Translations under genes and position numbers: made by a program
Part shown: positions 20,912 to 27,197 of the stretch, in pieces
How the letters are laid out: the number at the start of each line of letters is the position of its first letter
Numbering within the stretch: the first letter of the stretch is position 1
The notes under the pieces: model-generated
The model's input: only the letters and a program-made list of their open reading frames with translations
The model's database searches: none
Told to the model about the DNA's origin: nothing
Assembly: GCF_036231965.1 (NCBI RefSeq)
Contig: NZ_CP109499.1
Coordinates: 2,666,001-2,730,000 of the forward strand
Source of the DNA: Streptomyces sp. NBC_01428
GTDB taxonomy: Bacteria > Actinomycetota > Actinomycetes > Streptomycetales > Streptomycetaceae
Direction of reading: 5' to 3'
Length of the DNA: 64,000 nt

Positions 20912-22078
20912 TCAGCCCGGCATGGGCACCGTCACCGGCGGAACCGGCCCCACGTAGCGCGCCGCCGGGCGGATGATCTTCGAGTCCTCCGCCTGTTCCA
21001 GGATGTTCGCGCTCCAGCCGACGACGCGGGCGGCGGCGAACGTGGGAGTGAACATCTCCCGGGGGAGCCCGCAGAGTTCCATGACCACGCCCGCGTAGAA
21101 CTCCACGTTGGTATGGAGTTCGCGGCCCGGCTTCAGTTCGGCGAGGATCGCCTCCACGCGGTGTTCCACTTCGACGGCGAAGTCGACGAGTGGACCGCCG
21201 AACTCCTGGGCGATGCCTCGGAGCATCCGCGAACGCGGGTCCTCCGTCCGGTAGACGGGGTGCCCGAAGCCCATGATGCGGTCGCCGGCGAGGACGCGTT
21301 CACGGATCCAGCCGTCGATGCGGTCGGGCGTACCGATCGCGTCGAGCGTGTCCAGCGCACGGCTGGGAGCGCCCCCGTGCAGGGGCCCGGACAACGCCCC
21401 GACCGCACCCACCAGACACGCCGCGATATCCGCCCCCGTCGACGCGATCACCCGCGCCGTGAACGTTGATGCATTGAATCCGTGATCAATGGTTGAGATG
21501 AGGTATTGCTCAACCGCACGGGCCCGGCGCACATCCGGCTCCGAACCCGTCAGCATGTAGAGGTAGTTGGCCGCGTAACCCAGGTCCTCGCGCGGTTCGA
21601 CCGGCTCCAGCCCCTGCCCGATCCGGTACAGGGCGGTGAGCAGTGTCGGGACGGCGGCGGCCGCGGCGAGGCCGTCGTCGCGACGGCGCTCCGCATCGAT
21701 GTCGTAGACGGGCCGGAACCCGAGCGAGGCGCCGAGCAGGGACAACGCGGTACGCAGGCCGGCGAGAGGACCTGAGAGGCCGGTCGCCGCGGCGATGGCG
21801 GGCAGTGCGGCACGTACGTCGTCCGGCAGCCGGCGCAGCGCTCCGGTCCGTTCCGTGAAGGAGGCGCGGCGCGGCGCGTCGGGCAGGTCACCGTGTGCCA
21901 GCAGGTGCCAGACGTCCTCGAAGTCGCGGGTCTGCGCGAGTTCGACGGCCGAGTACTGGCGGTAGTGGTAGAAGCCCTCCAGCCCTCTGACGTCACCCAG
22001 TTCGGTGTCGGTGACGACGACGCCCGCGAGTCCTCGCGGCACGTCGACAGAGGTGGACGCGGTTCGGTTGATCGGCAT
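20912..22078 (-). CDS. Citrate synthase-family enzyme (citrate/2-methylcitrate synthase type)
   Basis: The 388-aa protein is a full-length type I/short citrate synthase. Catalytic His residues are in GPLHGGAPS (about 230) and GFGHPVYRTEDPRS (about 270). The general-base position reads NVEFYAGVVMELCG, so Glu stands where most citrate synthases have Asp (NVDFYSG). It condenses acetyl-CoA or propionyl-CoA with oxaloacetate; the sequence does not decide between citrate and methylcitrate. It is divergent from a citrate-synthase homologue that carries a DNA-binding domain, with an operator-like palindrome between them. Confidence 0.9.
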   Translation of the reverse strand: MPINRTASTSVDVPRGLAGVVVTDTELGDVRGLEGFYHYRQYSAVELAQTRDFEDVWHLLAHGDLPDAPRRASFTERTGALRRLPDDVRAALPAIAAATGLSGPLAGLRTALSLLGASLGFRPVYDIDAERRRDDGLAAAAAVPTLLTALYRIGQGLEPVEPREDLGYAANYLYMLTGSEPDVRRARAVEQYLISTIDHGFNASTFTARVIASTGADIAACLVGAVGALSGPLHGGAPSRALDTLDAIGTPDRIDGWIRERVLAGDRIMGFGHPVYRTEDPRSRMLRGIAQEFGGPLVDFAVEVEHRVEAILAELKPGRELHTNVEFYAGVVMELCGLPREMFTPTFAAARVVGWSANILEQAEDSKIIRPAARYVGPVPPVTVPMPG

Positions 22079-22130
22079 GTTTCCTCCCTGGACTTGATCC
22101 GACTGTCCATGCTTGACTCTAAGACTGTCA

Positions 22131-22149
22131 ATATTGATTCAATCAATAT
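22131..22149. promoter_or_regulatory. 19-bp perfect palindrome between the two citrate synthase genes
   Basis: ATATTGATTCAATCAATAT is a perfect palindrome around the C at 22140, in an AT-rich island in otherwise about 70% GC DNA. It is 53 nt from the minus-strand start and 27 nt from the plus-strand start, so it overlaps both promoter zones. This is the form of an operator. The fused HTH domain of the neighbouring citrate synthase is the obvious candidate ligand. Confidence 0.7.
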
Positions 22150-22162
22150 ACCGATCCACAGA

Positions 22163-22168
22163 TACGGT
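22163..22168 (+). promoter_or_regulatory. -10 element of a leaderless promoter for the HTH-citrate synthase
   Basis: TACGGT lies 7 nt before the ATG at 22176 and no Shine-Dalgarno is present. Transcription should start at or next to the A of ATG. Confidence 0.55.
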
Positions 22169-22175
22169 GGCGCCC

Positions 22176-23441
22176 ATGAGGGATCGAGAAGCGGCAACGC
22201 CAGGGCACGAGGGCCGACGGCTCAGCACCAAGGAGACCGCCGAGCTGCTCGGCGTGAAGCCGGAGACCGTCTACGCCTACGTGAGCCGTGGACAGCTCGG
22301 CAGCCGGCGCGAGCAGGGAGGGCGCGGAAGCACCTTCGACGTCAAGGAGGTGGAGGCGCTCGCCCGGCGCAACAGGCGCGAGAACAGCGGCAGTTCGGGA
22401 GGTTCGGGTGAACTCTCCGTCCGCACGCGCATCACTTTGATCGAGAAGGACCGCTACTACTTCCGGGGCGTCGACGCGACGGAACTGGCGGCGCACCACT
22501 CCTACGAAGAGATCGCCGAATGGCTCTGGACCGGCGAACTGCGCCCAGGTGCCACGTTCACGGCCCCGGAGGCGTCGGTGACCGCCGCTCGGCACAGCGT
22601 CGACGCCTTGCCCGAGCACAGCGGTCCCACCGACCGCCTGCGCGTCGCCGCGATCGCCGCGGCGGCCGCCGATCCGCTCCGCTTCGACCTCTCCGAGAAC
22701 ACCGTCCTCGGCACCGGGCGAACCCTCATCCCCACCCTCGTAGCCGCTCTGCCCCCGGTCCGGCGCGACCACCGCGACGAGGGTCCGCTGGCCCGTCGGC
22801 TGTGGGCGAGGCTCACCGGGCGCGCACCCGACGCCCCGTCACTGCGGGTCCTGGACGCGGCACTCGGGCTGCTCGTGGACCACGACCTGGCCGCGTCGAC
22901 GTTGGCGGTCCGGGTCGCCGCGTCGGCCCGGGCGCACCCCTACGCGGCTGTTTCGGCGGGGTTGGGCGTCCTCGAAGGGCCGCTGCACGGAGCGGCCAGC
23001 GGCCTCGCCCACCGGTTGCTTCTCGACGTACTCGACCAGGGCACCGCGGCCCCCGTCGTCGCGGACGAGCTGCGCGCCGGACGCCGCGTCCCCGGACTCG
23101 GCCACCGGCTCTACACAGGCGAGGATCCCCGCGCGCGTGCCTTGTTCGCCCTCCTGGAGGACGTACCAGGTGCGGCGCCGGCTGTGGCGGCGGCGCACGA
23201 CGTCGTGGCCACCACCGCCCGGCACGCGCCCCTGCACGCCAACGTCGACCTCGCGCTGGCCGCCTTCACCGTCTCCTCCGGTATGCCGGCTTCCGCCGGA
23301 GAGACGATCTTCGCCGTCGCCCGCACGGCGGGCTGGATCGCGCACACCCTGGAGGAGTACGCGGAACGCCCGCTGAGGATGCGCCCGAGCGGCCACTACG
23401 TGGGCGAACGCCCACCACAGCCGCTCCCCAGCAGCCTCTAG
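22176..23441 (+). CDS. Citrate synthase homologue fused to an N-terminal helix-turn-helix domain
   Basis: The 421-aa protein begins with an excisionase/MerR-like HTH (LSTKETAELLGVKPETVYAYVSRGQLGSRREQ, residues 14-45, then FDVKEVEALARR). A Ser/Gly linker (ENSGSSGGSGE) leads into a citrate synthase fold. Active-site residues are kept: His in GPLHGAASG, His in GLGHRLYTGEDPRA and Asp in NVDLALAAF. The enzyme half is shorter and diverged compared with its neighbour. I chose ATG 22176 since the upstream extension has no ribosome site and a -10 hexamer fits a leaderless start. It could be an active enzyme, a sensor-regulator that reads a citrate-synthase ligand, or both. Confidence 0.87.
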   Translation: MRDREAATPGHEGRRLSTKETAELLGVKPETVYAYVSRGQLGSRREQGGRGSTFDVKEVEALARRNRRENSGSSGGSGELSVRTRITLIEKDRYYFRGVDATELAAHHSYEEIAEWLWTGELRPGATFTAPEASVTAARHSVDALPEHSGPTDRLRVAAIAAAAADPLRFDLSENTVLGTGRTLIPTLVAALPPVRRDHRDEGPLARRLWARLTGRAPDAPSLRVLDAALGLLVDHDLAASTLAVRVAASARAHPYAAVSAGLGVLEGPLHGAASGLAHRLLLDVLDQGTAAPVVADELRAGRRVPGLGHRLYTGEDPRARALFALLEDVPGAAPAVAAAHDVVATTARHAPLHANVDLALAAFTVSSGMPASAGETIFAVARTAGWIAHTLEEYAERPLRMRPSGHYVGERPPQPLPSSL

Positions 23442-24735: not shown

Positions 24736-26520
24736 ATGGAGCAAGAGATCCCTGCCACAACCCCTTCGATGAGCCGCACCCGCCCCCGTACGGTCGTACG
24801 CATGAGGCCCACTCCCCCCGCACGACGACTGCGGTTCGGCATGCCGCGGCGGGTGTTCTCGCAGGTCCTGCTGATGCAGATCGTGATCGCGGCGGGAGTC
24901 GCCGTTCTCGCCACCGGCCTGTTCCTGGCGCCGCTCAGCGCGCAGCTGGACGACCAGGCCATGCAGCGCGCCCTCGCGATCGCCCAGACCACAGCGGTGC
25001 AGCCGCAGATCGCCGAGGACCTCAGGAGCACGAGTCCTTCCACGGCCGGACCCGTGCAGGCCGAGGCGGAGCGGATACGGAAGGCCAGTGACGCCGAGTA
25101 CGTCGTGGTGATGGACACGCGGGGCATCCGCTGGTCGCACACCGACCCGAAGGAGATCGGGCGACAGGTCTCGACGGACCCGCGCAAGGCCCTGGAGGGC
25201 CGCGACGTCATGGAGATCGACACCGGAACCCTCGGCCGCTCCGCGCGCGGAAAGGTCCCGTTGCGCGACGCCGACGACAGGATCATCGGCGCGGTCTCGG
25301 TGGGCATCCGGTACGACAGCGTGCGGGCCCGGTTGATCGACGCGATCCCGGGGTTGTTCGCGTACGCGGGCGGAGCCATGGCCGTCGGCGCGCTGGCCGC
25401 GTATCTGATCTCCCGCAGAGTGCAGCGGCAGACCCGTGACCTGGCCTTCTCCGACATCGCGGCACTGCTGGCGGAGCGCGAGGCGATGCTGCACGGCATC
25501 CGGGAGGGCGTGGTGGCCCTGGACCGCGGCGGTCACGTACGTCTCCTGAACGACGAGGCGCAGCGTCTGCTGGGGGTCGGTGCCGAGGCCATCGGGCAGC
25601 CGCTGGACGACGCGCTCGGGTCCGGTCGTACGACCGACGTGCTGGCCGGGCGGGTCACCGGTACCGATCTGCTCACCGTCCGCGGACAGCGTGTGCTGGT
25701 CGCCAACCGGATGCCCACCGACGACGGCGGTGCGGTCGCCACGTTGCGCGACCGCACCGAGCTGGAGCAGTTGGGCCGCGAGCTGGACTCCACCCGCGGC
25801 CTCATCGATGCTCTGCGGGCGCAGGATCACGAGCACGCCAACCGCATGCACACGCTTCTGGGGCTGCTCGAACTGGAGATGTACGACGACGCCGTGGAGT
25901 TCGTCGGTGAGGTGGTGGGAGACCACCGGGTCACCGCGGAACAGGTCACCGAGAAGGTCCACGATCCGCTCCTCGCCGCCCTTCTGGTGGGCAAGGCGAC
26001 GGTGGCCGCCGAACGCGGCGTGGCGTTGTGGGTCTCGGACCGGACGATGCTCCCGGACCGGCTGGTCGACCCGCGTGGGCTCGTCACCGTCGTGGGGAAC
26101 CTCGTCGACAACGCGCTGGACGCCGTCGCGGGCACACCGCACGCACGCGTGGAGGTCGAGTTGCGGTCGGTGGAGCGCACCGCCGTGCTGCGGGTCCAGG
26201 ACACCGGACCCGGCATCCCGGCGGAGCGGCGGGAGTTGATCTTCACGGACGGGTGGAGCACGAAGAAGCCCCCGGCCCACGGCAAGCGAGGAATCGGTCT
26301 CTCCCTGGTGCGCCGGTTCGCCGAACGCCAGGGCGGCAGCGCGGAGGTGGCGGACGCGGAGGGCGGGGGTGCCGAGTTCACCGTCGTGCTGCCCGAGGCG
26401 CTCACGGAGGCGCCGGCGGAGACGCCCGGAGACGCGGGGCACGCCCATCCCGCGCGCGTGGCCGTCGAGAGCACGGAAGAGGCGCGGGAAAACGGATACT
26501 CCGAGGAGGAGTCGCGATGA
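24736..26520 (+). CDS. CitA/DcuS-type sensor histidine kinase
   Basis: The 594-aa protein has TM1 (VFSQVLLMQIVIAAGVAVLATGLFLAPL, about 42-68), an extracytoplasmic PDC-like sensor domain (about 70-205), TM2 (GLFAYAGGAMAVGALAAYLI, about 210-230) and a PAS domain (EAMLHGIREGVVALDRGGHVRLLN). The SpoOB-type phosphoacceptor helix reads LRAQDHEHANRMHTLLGLLE, followed by a HATPase with NLVDNALDAV, DTGPGIP and GKRGIGLSLVRRF. This class senses di/tricarboxylates outside the cell. The start is uncertain: ATG 24736 opens the frame, and ATG 24772 or 24802 would suit the TM1 spacing. Its stop overlaps the start of its response regulator by 4 nt. Confidence 0.92.
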   Translation: MEQEIPATTPSMSRTRPRTVVRMRPTPPARRLRFGMPRRVFSQVLLMQIVIAAGVAVLATGLFLAPLSAQLDDQAMQRALAIAQTTAVQPQIAEDLRSTSPSTAGPVQAEAERIRKASDAEYVVVMDTRGIRWSHTDPKEIGRQVSTDPRKALEGRDVMEIDTGTLGRSARGKVPLRDADDRIIGAVSVGIRYDSVRARLIDAIPGLFAYAGGAMAVGALAAYLISRRVQRQTRDLAFSDIAALLAEREAMLHGIREGVVALDRGGHVRLLNDEAQRLLGVGAEAIGQPLDDALGSGRTTDVLAGRVTGTDLLTVRGQRVLVANRMPTDDGGAVATLRDRTELEQLGRELDSTRGLIDALRAQDHEHANRMHTLLGLLELEMYDDAVEFVGEVVGDHRVTAEQVTEKVHDPLLAALLVGKATVAAERGVALWVSDRTMLPDRLVDPRGLVTVVGNLVDNALDAVAGTPHARVEVELRSVERTAVLRVQDTGPGIPAERRELIFTDGWSTKKPPAHGKRGIGLSLVRRFAERQGGSAEVADAEGGGAEFTVVLPEALTEAPAETPGDAGHAHPARVAVESTEEARENGYSEEESR

Positions 26521-27197
26521 TCGAGGTCCTGGTCGTGGACGACGACCCCCGGGTCGCCCGGGTCAACGCCGCGTACGTGGCGAAGGTGCCGGGTTTCCGC
26601 GTCGCCGGAGAGGCGCACAGTGCCTCCGAGGCTCTGGTCCTGATGGAGGCGCTGCCCCGCCTGGACCTCGTCCTCCTGGACCACTACCTGCCCGACGAGA
26701 CCGGACTCTCGGTCGTCCAGGAGATGCGCCGGCGCGGCCGTCAGACCGACGTGATCATGGTGACCGCGGCGCGGGACATCTCCACCGTCCAGGCGGCCAT
26801 GCGTCAGGGGGCACTCCAGTACCTGGTCAAGCCGTTCGCGTTCGCCGGGCTGCGGACGAAACTGGAGGCCTACGCGGAACTGCGGCGCACTCTGGACGGT
26901 GGTGGCGAGGCCGAACAGGCGCAGGTGGACCGGATCTTCGGAACCCTCTCGGCGAGCTCCGAACCGGACCTGCCCAAGGGGCACTCTCCCCCGACAGCCG
27001 GGCTGGTGCGGCGCGCCCTGATCGACGCCGAGGGCCCGCTGTCGGCGCAGGAGGTCGCCGAGGAGACCGGCCTGAGCCGGCAGACCGCACAGCGCTATCT
27101 GAAGCTGCTGGAGCGCACCGGAAGGGCCACGCTGACCCTCAGGTACGGCGACGCGGGGCGCCCGGAGCATCGCTATGTCTGGGCGACCCGCGTCTGA
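26517..27197 (+). CDS. CitB/DcuR-type response regulator, partner of the adjacent kinase
   Basis: The 226-aa protein has a receiver domain with acidic pocket DDDP (residues 8-11), phosphoacceptor Asp in LVLLDHYLPDETGL (about 55), Thr in MVTAA and Lys in LVKPF (about 105). The C-terminal winged helix is GPLSAQEVAEETGLSRQTAQRYLKLLERTGRATLTLRYG (about 173-211). ATGA overlap with the kinase stop, with GAGGAGGA upstream, indicates coupled translation. It is closely similar over its whole length to the orphan regulator at 30200-30892. Confidence 0.94.
   Translation: MIEVLVVDDDPRVARVNAAYVAKVPGFRVAGEAHSASEALVLMEALPRLDLVLLDHYLPDETGLSVVQEMRRRGRQTDVIMVTAARDISTVQAAMRQGALQYLVKPFAFAGLRTKLEAYAELRRTLDGGGEAEQAQVDRIFGTLSASSEPDLPKGHSPPTAGLVRRALIDAEGPLSAQEVAEETGLSRQTAQRYLKLLERTGRATLTLRYGDAGRPEHRYVWATRV

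Follow-up and report, generated by a model that had tools for sequence, protein, structure and literature searches.

A helix-turn-helix–citrate synthase fusion and its proposed operator in Streptomyces and other bacteria

Citrate synthase is an enzyme of central carbon metabolism, and a citrate synthase gene that also encodes a DNA-binding domain, and is transcribed away from a second citrate synthase gene, raises the question of whether its product acts as an enzyme, a regulator, or both. Such a pair lies in the stretch of DNA analysed here (the window; 64,000 nt of Streptomyces sp. NBC_01428, contig NZ_CP109499.1, positions 2,666,001–2,730,000). The fusion gene occupies 22,176–23,441 on the forward strand and encodes 421 aa (open reading frame, Pfam, and orthologues). 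Its divergent partner, at 20,912–22,078 on the reverse strand, is a plain citrate synthase of PRK12350 type that scores above the cut-off of that model (open reading frame, Pfam, and NCBIfam). An earlier reading made from the letters alone (the sequence-only reading) had described a divergent pair with a 97-nt gap, which is found at 22,079–22,175, and had proposed that the fusion controls both genes. Our analysis leads us to regard the fusion as very probably an autoregulatory one-component transcription factor, which would repress the partner and sense a 2-oxo or hydroxy acid or an acyl-CoA in its citrate-synthase pocket.

The genes around the pair encode, by Pfam, CobW-like, DUF6082, and sucrase/ferredoxin-like proteins as well as a histidine kinase and a response regulator, the last two forming a two-component system (24,736–27,197) downstream of the fusion with one gene between. 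From these neighbours, we take the pair to be probable orthologues of SCO5831/SCO5832 (citA3/citA4) of S. coelicolor. The excerpt of PMC12323332 describes SCO5831/SCO5832 as putative citrate synthases with a common intergenic region, and that of PMC9739823 gives a sucrase/ferredoxin-like protein (SCO5830) and a kinase (SCO5829) as neighbours of SCO5831; the window neighbours fit this description of the SCO5828–SCO5831 region. SCO5831 protein was more abundant under phosphate proficiency than under phosphate limitation (excerpts of PMC9739823 and PMC8981147). The excerpts of these three articles (PMC12323332, PMC9739823, and PMC8981147) make no mention of a DNA-binding domain or a regulatory role for SCO5831/SCO5832, and among the open-access PubMed Central matches listed, no paper dealt with a helix-turn-helix (HTH) joined to a citrate synthase.

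Domains, fold, and active site of the fusion

The N-terminal part of the fusion is a winged HTH (wHTH) of BldC/MerR/Xis-like fold (residues 16–67; 22,221–22,376, forward strand), identified as HTH_17 by Pfam and supported by AlphaFold, Foldseek, and a profile search of PDB sequences. The sequence-only reading was right that an HTH is fused to a citrate synthase, but its estimate of ~35 residues was too small, the winged domain having about 52. The structural model of the HTH (pLDDT 87.5) was closest by Foldseek to RacA, BldC, HiNmlR, SoxR, and phage Xis (best E 1.4e-3, with no match at or under 1e-3), and it resembles DNA-bound BldC, RacA, and HiNmlR. Membership among MerR-type wHTHs is indicated by PF13411 (24.1 bits vs a cut-off of 21.6) and by the Foldseek matches to HiNmlR and SoxR; PF00376 scored 21.6 bits, under its cut-off of 28.2. 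The C-terminal coiled-coil dimerisation helix of classical MerR proteins is absent after the wHTH, where a low-confidence Ser/Gly linker and the citrate synthase domain stand instead. With BldC, an excisionase-type wHTH (HTH_17), the domain shares the fold and about 35% identity over 49 residues (Foldseek), but the BldC family model NF033787 gave 18.3 bits against a cut-off of 77, and the fusion is 421 aa long vs about 68 for that family.

The Ser/Gly-rich linker, also noted from the letters alone, is present at about residues 68–77 (22,377–22,406, forward strand; pLDDT <50 at 69–85), and the citrate-synthase domain follows at residues 78–404 (22,407–23,387, forward strand; Pfam, residue alignment, and Foldseek). 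This domain scored 212.5 bits with PF00285, and the Foldseek matches of the full-length AlphaFold model, which is of moderate confidence (pLDDT 75.3), were citrate synthases, with 1iom, 6aby, and 3hwk among the top ones. The fusion scored far below the NCBIfam citrate synthase cut-offs. It resembles type II citrate and 2-methylcitrate synthases in PF00285 coverage and in its catalytic triad, and differs from them in its N-terminal wHTH, in its separate tree group, and, in Streptomyces, in the loss of an active-site Asn (see below). In the tree, the citrate-synthase domains of 49 fusions were split by a branch of 100/100 from 23 other citrate synthases, namely 20 partners and only three plain ones (the midpoint root served for drawing only), and the fusions are a single grouping among the sequences compared.

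A DNA-binding domain and a domain of ligand-binding fold thus stand on one chain, the make-up of a one-component regulator. A known case of this kind is the MocR/PdxR group, in which a GntR-family winged HTH is fused to a sensor of aminotransferase fold with PLP as ligand. The likeness lies in an enzyme domain that serves as the effector domain of a one-component regulator, often divergent from its target, and the difference in the HTH family (GntR) and in the enzyme fold.

Could the fusion still be an enzyme? Active-site residues (His238 to Arg421) are given here in what we take to be pig citrate synthase numbering. The His-His-Asp triad reported by the sequence-only reading is present at His271, His310, and Asp358 of the window fusion, and its equivalents (His274, His320, and Asp375) are kept in 170/170 aligned fusions. 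The equivalents of His238, Ser244, His274, His320, Arg329, Asp375, Arg401, and Arg421 are kept in 130/130 Streptomyces fusions and, except for His238 (36/40), in all of 40 distant fusions (L225 and L233, with Ile in the HTH motif, were left out of the residue counts). This would be consistent with a trigger enzyme, in which an active (methyl)citrate synthase would double as repressor of its locus and so couple catalysis to regulation, as opposed to a sensor that has lost catalysis. We nonetheless consider a trigger enzyme rather doubtful, since the Asn242 equivalent is Ala239 in the window fusion, Ala in 130/130 Streptomyces fusions, and Ala, Pro, Thr, or Ser in 27 of the 40 distant ones (Asn in 13), vs Asn in 134/137 partner citrate synthases (3 gaps) and in 3/3 plain ones. 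As for the partners, Glu takes the place of the catalytic Asp in 133/137 (the other 4 being gaps). The window partner at 20,912–22,078 has this Glu, as has L003, a further plain citrate synthase encoded in that genome, on which ground we rejected the idea that the partner is inactive because the Asp is gone.

The proposed operator and the promoters around it

The perfect 19-bp palindrome that the sequence-only reading placed between the genes was recovered by a palindrome search (ATATTGATTCAATCAATAT, 22,131–22,149), in an AT-rich island as claimed (AT 0.71 over 35 nt around it vs 0.29 for the window). That reading had made its proposal depend on conservation of the palindrome between orthologous divergent pairs in other Streptomyces, and this was observed: ATTGATTNAATCAAT occurs with ≤2 mismatches in 121/130 Streptomyces upstream regions vs 1/1512 control windows taken within those loci. 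At up to 2 mismatches, it has a single occurrence in the 9.08-Mb genome to which the window belongs. The 130 regions remained when duplicates were removed from 143 loci plus the window; since every locus had been selected as a best match to the fusion of the window, near relatives are over-represented.

The perfect dyad was rejected as the conserved unit. The conserved element instead has three half-sites, TCAA-N2-TTGAY-N3-RTCAA, the second and third of which are in most cases 3, 6, or 7 nt apart, and the palindrome is only one part of it. Among 126 of the 130 distinct regions that were aligned, every fixed letter of TCAA..TTGA......TCAA is the same in 125 or 126, ten operator columns are invariant, and the letters between the half-sites are freer. 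In the window, the proposed operator (TCAATATTGATTCAATCAAT) spans 22,128–22,147, with half-sites at 22,128–22,131, 22,134–22,137, and 22,143–22,146; we propose it on the basis of its conserved sequence and position and of the family-wide pattern. A stricter operator pattern was found in 124/130 regions vs 0/6500 dinucleotide shuffles (the shuffles, like the Fisher values below, ignore kinship, and related species are not independent), and the operator adjoins the fusion in 128/130 regions with a regular expression that was loosened once misses had appeared, the stricter one being used alongside. One locus (L028) has two operator-like copies upstream of its fusion gene (upstream of 3001). BldC, which is a wHTH alone, binds direct repeats as head-to-tail multimers (excerpt of PMC5859096), whereas the fusion locus has inverted TCAA/TTGA half-sites and a protein with a citrate-synthase body; its conserved columns, TCAA..TTGA......TCAA, do not form the BldC repeats AATTNNNNC.

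On the reverse strand, a putative –35 of the partner (TTGACA, 22,126–22,131) overlaps half-site 1, and a putative –10 (GACAGT, 22,102–22,107) follows after an 18-nt spacer. TTGACA is present in 123/128 operators, GACAGT in 109/128 (GACATT in 8/128), and the 18-nt spacer in 109 of 128. The putative leaderless –10 of the fusion gene, predicted earlier and backed here by conservation, is TACGGT (22,163–22,168, forward strand), 7 nt ahead of the ATG; TASSGT followed by a start codon after 6–8 nt occurs in 127/130 Streptomyces regions (126 ATG, 1 GTG). Between the operator and the fusion –10 lie 6 to 59 nt (median 27; 125 regions with both located), and therefore effects on the fusion's own promoter may differ between species. 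That the operator stands in a fixed geometry to the partner promoter, whereas its distance to the fusion promoter is loose, suggests that the partner is the main target.

In the mechanism that we propose, a citrate-synthase homodimer would present two BldC/MerR-like wHTHs via the flexible linker, and the paired wHTHs would bind the three-half-site operator between both genes, the linker possibly accommodating the different distances (3, 6, or 7 nt) from half-site 2 to half-site 3. With half-site 1 over the partner –35 and the whole site just upstream of the fusion –10, binding would lead to repression of the partner and to autoregulation. A 2-oxo or 2-hydroxy acid and/or an acyl-CoA in the citrate-synthase pocket would then alter DNA binding.

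We infer repression from the overlap of half-site 1 with the partner –35, and the fusion, if it is a transcription factor, is probably a repressor. Divergent regulator–target pairs are often activators (LysR type), and the partner –10 (GACAGT) is weak compared with TATAAT, both of which would fit a fusion that activates the partner instead. We find activation unlikely given that a good –35, with its TTGACA and 18-nt spacer conserved as above, sits under the site, for which steric repression is the better fit, and that at a second gene with the operator (a CoA-transferase gene, see below) the site directly precedes the proposed –10.

Presence, absence, and rearrangement of the operator in Streptomyces

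The operator is conserved beside the fusion gene and also co-occurs with it. In a sample of 61 Streptomyces genomes (36 with the fusion, 25 without), sites with ≤1 mismatch anywhere in the genome were found in 29/36 fusion-bearing vs 0/25 fusion-lacking genomes (p about 4e-11), and sites at up to 2 mismatches in 35/36 and 6/25, respectively. The strong site of some genomes (e.g., G013 and G016) is at the CoA-transferase gene and not at the fusion.

In G027, where the partner is kept and the fusion is absent, no site was found at up to 2 mismatches, and the –10 region (ACTGTCCATG) is present. Conversely, two loci (L099 of G013 and L144 of G072) have a fusion without the operator, and no partner in the 1.5–2.4 kb upstream. 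The partner motif was not found in the loci L033, L058, and L080, in which the operator still adjoins the fusion start; the hexamer at the position of the partner –35 is TTGATG instead of TTGACA in L033 and L058, and TTGACA in L080. In S. aurantiacus (L020), where the partner lies inverted relative to its usual orientation, a separate copy of the operator precedes each gene (at 1523 and 2945 of that locus), the copy at the fusion having its first half-site changed to TTAA. These cases suggest that both genes are targets. Control of both genes by the fusion is supported by the conservation of the site, by its presence and absence, and by the natural inversion in L020.

Several further loci were noted. 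L189 covers the same inverted-partner region as L020. G022, a genome otherwise without the fusion, has a 67%-identical fusion fragment (G022:C76:28494-28691), an apparent remnant, and a degenerate site with 6 mismatches at its CoA-transferase promoter. A second match in G003 (L176; G003:C22:28281-29453), whose genome also has the orthologue, is 35% identical, extends into the HTH, and showed no usual helix motif. G015 was rejected as a partner-only genome, its gene looking like PrpC and lying beside PrpB-like and PrpD-like genes (by eye).

Of 13 sites read away from the locus, 8, each in a different genome, closely precede the proposed –10 of a family III CoA-transferase gene (Pfam assignment from the L177 copy); the other five are at other places (L183, L185, L187, L188, and L190), and the 13 are a subset of the sites found in the genome scan. 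When CoA-transferase promoters were read in 30 of the 42 genomes with a match, a site with ≤2 mismatches was present in 8/17 fusion-bearing vs 0/13 other genomes (p 0.004). The CoA-transferase promoter of the window genome has a degenerate site only (5 mismatches), that genome having one strong site. In some Streptomyces, then, the fusion probably also controls a family III CoA-transferase gene that is not linked to it. In Comamonas antarctica, the gene divergent from the fusion itself encodes a CoA-transferase, 42% identical over 432 aligned positions to the Streptomyces one. Among the five other sites, L183:3609-3623 (G014) is a palindrome with 1 mismatch between a sugar-binding-protein-like and a ROK-like regulator gene (by eye).

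The fusion and its operator beyond Streptomyces

The sequence-only reading mentioned homologous fused genes in actinobacteria; they also occur in Deinococcota and Pseudomonadota, and with partners other than citrate synthase. Among the fusion genes preceded by the operator are some from actinobacterial classes other than that of Streptomyces. In an order-wide sample, 182/293 genomes have a match to the fusion with E ≤1e-40, and almost all of these genomes are Streptomyces. Two genomes of the same order and another family (G063 and G083) have matches at E 1e-46 and 1e-49.

Across 396 genomes of the phylum, we counted 38 HTH-bearing fusion genes, leaving out one cut gene (G367:C25) and five matches starting after residue 60 (G365, G621, and second matches in G353, G367, and G381). 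In 32 of these 38, the exact pattern TCAAYNTTGAYN(1-8)RTCAAY stands in one orientation 19–116 nt upstream of the point at which the protein match begins, and elsewhere in the same sample it has 35 further matches in 32 genomes. By genome, a pattern match is present in 33/38 fusion-bearing vs 30/358 fusion-lacking ones. The six fusion genes without an adjacent exact match are in G072, G013, G353, G703, G414, and G426; near forms of the operator are at the fusion in G353 and G426, and a clear site adjoining the fusion gene was not found in L151 (G703) and L159 (G414).

A tblastn search against plasmids gave 156 records, 54 of them covering 80% of the query, and from the 40 of these 156 records that were listed we picked 23 loci for taxon spread (Actinomycetota, Deinococcota, and Pseudomonadota). 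The exact pattern is present in 16 of these plasmid-borne loci and a near form in 4 (L228, L229, L234, and L241). In the remaining three, from the Burkholderia group (L231, L246, and L247), the operator motif is absent from the 6 kb read. The fusion genes of these three loci are on the same strand as, and downstream of, SDR, MFS, and VOC genes. Together with loci from the phylum sample, 43 distant loci (L149–L168 and L225–L247) were considered, of which L156 was dropped because it ends at a contig end; there is overlap between the 19 drawn from the phylum sample and the 38 fusion genes counted above. All 42 others carry [VLI]Y[AS][YN][VA]SRG, the motif used to locate the HTH, and the exact pattern is present in 31 of the 42 vs 1/4200 shuffles.

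The partner changes between lineages (identified from the annotation of the records, with Pfam, or by visual inspection of translations). It is a citrate synthase in Embleya, Tsukamurella, Agrobacterium, and Sinorhizobium, a CoA-transferase in Comamonas antarctica and Ewingella, an HMGL-like protein or pyruvate carboxyltransferase in Nonomuraea and Deinococcus, and a 2-hydroxyacid dehydrogenase in Cupriavidus, Variovorax, and Comamonas endophytica. In Thioclava, Caballeronia, and Paraburkholderia, an MFS transporter is followed by a 2-hydroxyacid dehydrogenase, and DinB-like and DUF2332 proteins are further partners. Because most partners act on 2-oxo/2-hydroxy acids or CoA thioesters, the ligand may well belong to one of these classes.

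BldC, MtrA, and GlnR are global regulators and would be expected in fusion-lacking Streptomyces genomes too. That one of them, or the two-component system at 24,736–27,197, binds the operator while the fusion's HTH is incidental appears very unlikely: MtrA does bind a probe from the SCO5831/SCO5832 intergenic region of S. coelicolor (excerpt of PMC12323332), the kinase and response regulator do lie downstream of the fusion past one gene, and the fusion HTH is BldC-like and BldC sites are AT-rich (excerpt of PMC5859096), but the operator tracks the fusion gene across phyla and partners and (at ≤1 mismatch) is absent from 25/25 fusion-lacking Streptomyces genomes, the predicted MtrA site TTGACTTAACTGTCCA (excerpt of PMC12323332) aligns by eye with 22,094–22,109, which is outside the operator and overlies the partner –10, and BldC reads the direct repeats given above rather than TCAA-N2-TTGA (excerpt of PMC5859096). 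The MtrA binding in S. coelicolor does mean that other regulators act in this intergenic region.

The recurrence of fusion and operator together in three phyla points to a family of metabolite-sensing gene switches that has gone unnoticed. It is likely, in our view, that HTH–citrate synthases are a widespread undescribed transcription factor family in at least three phyla that senses metabolic state by means of a citrate-synthase fold, that their operator (TCAAYNTTGAY-N3..7-RTCAAY) is older than the exchange or inheritance of the fusion gene among those lineages and has been retained, and that the partners have been rewired among citrate synthase, family III CoA-transferase, HMGL/homocitrate-synthase-like enzymes, 2-hydroxyacid dehydrogenase, and organic-acid transporters. 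A branch of citrate synthases acting as transcription factors, with an operator and a set of partners across phyla, would make transcriptional sensing of 2-oxo acids and acyl-CoA directly testable, and many genes now annotated as citrate synthase would need re-annotation if this is true. Operator-like matches were also observed away from detected fusions (G451:C1:133730-133748, G478:C6:2866-2888, and G417:C1:2439309-2439332), and it is possible that these are further targets, undetected fusions, or chance matches.
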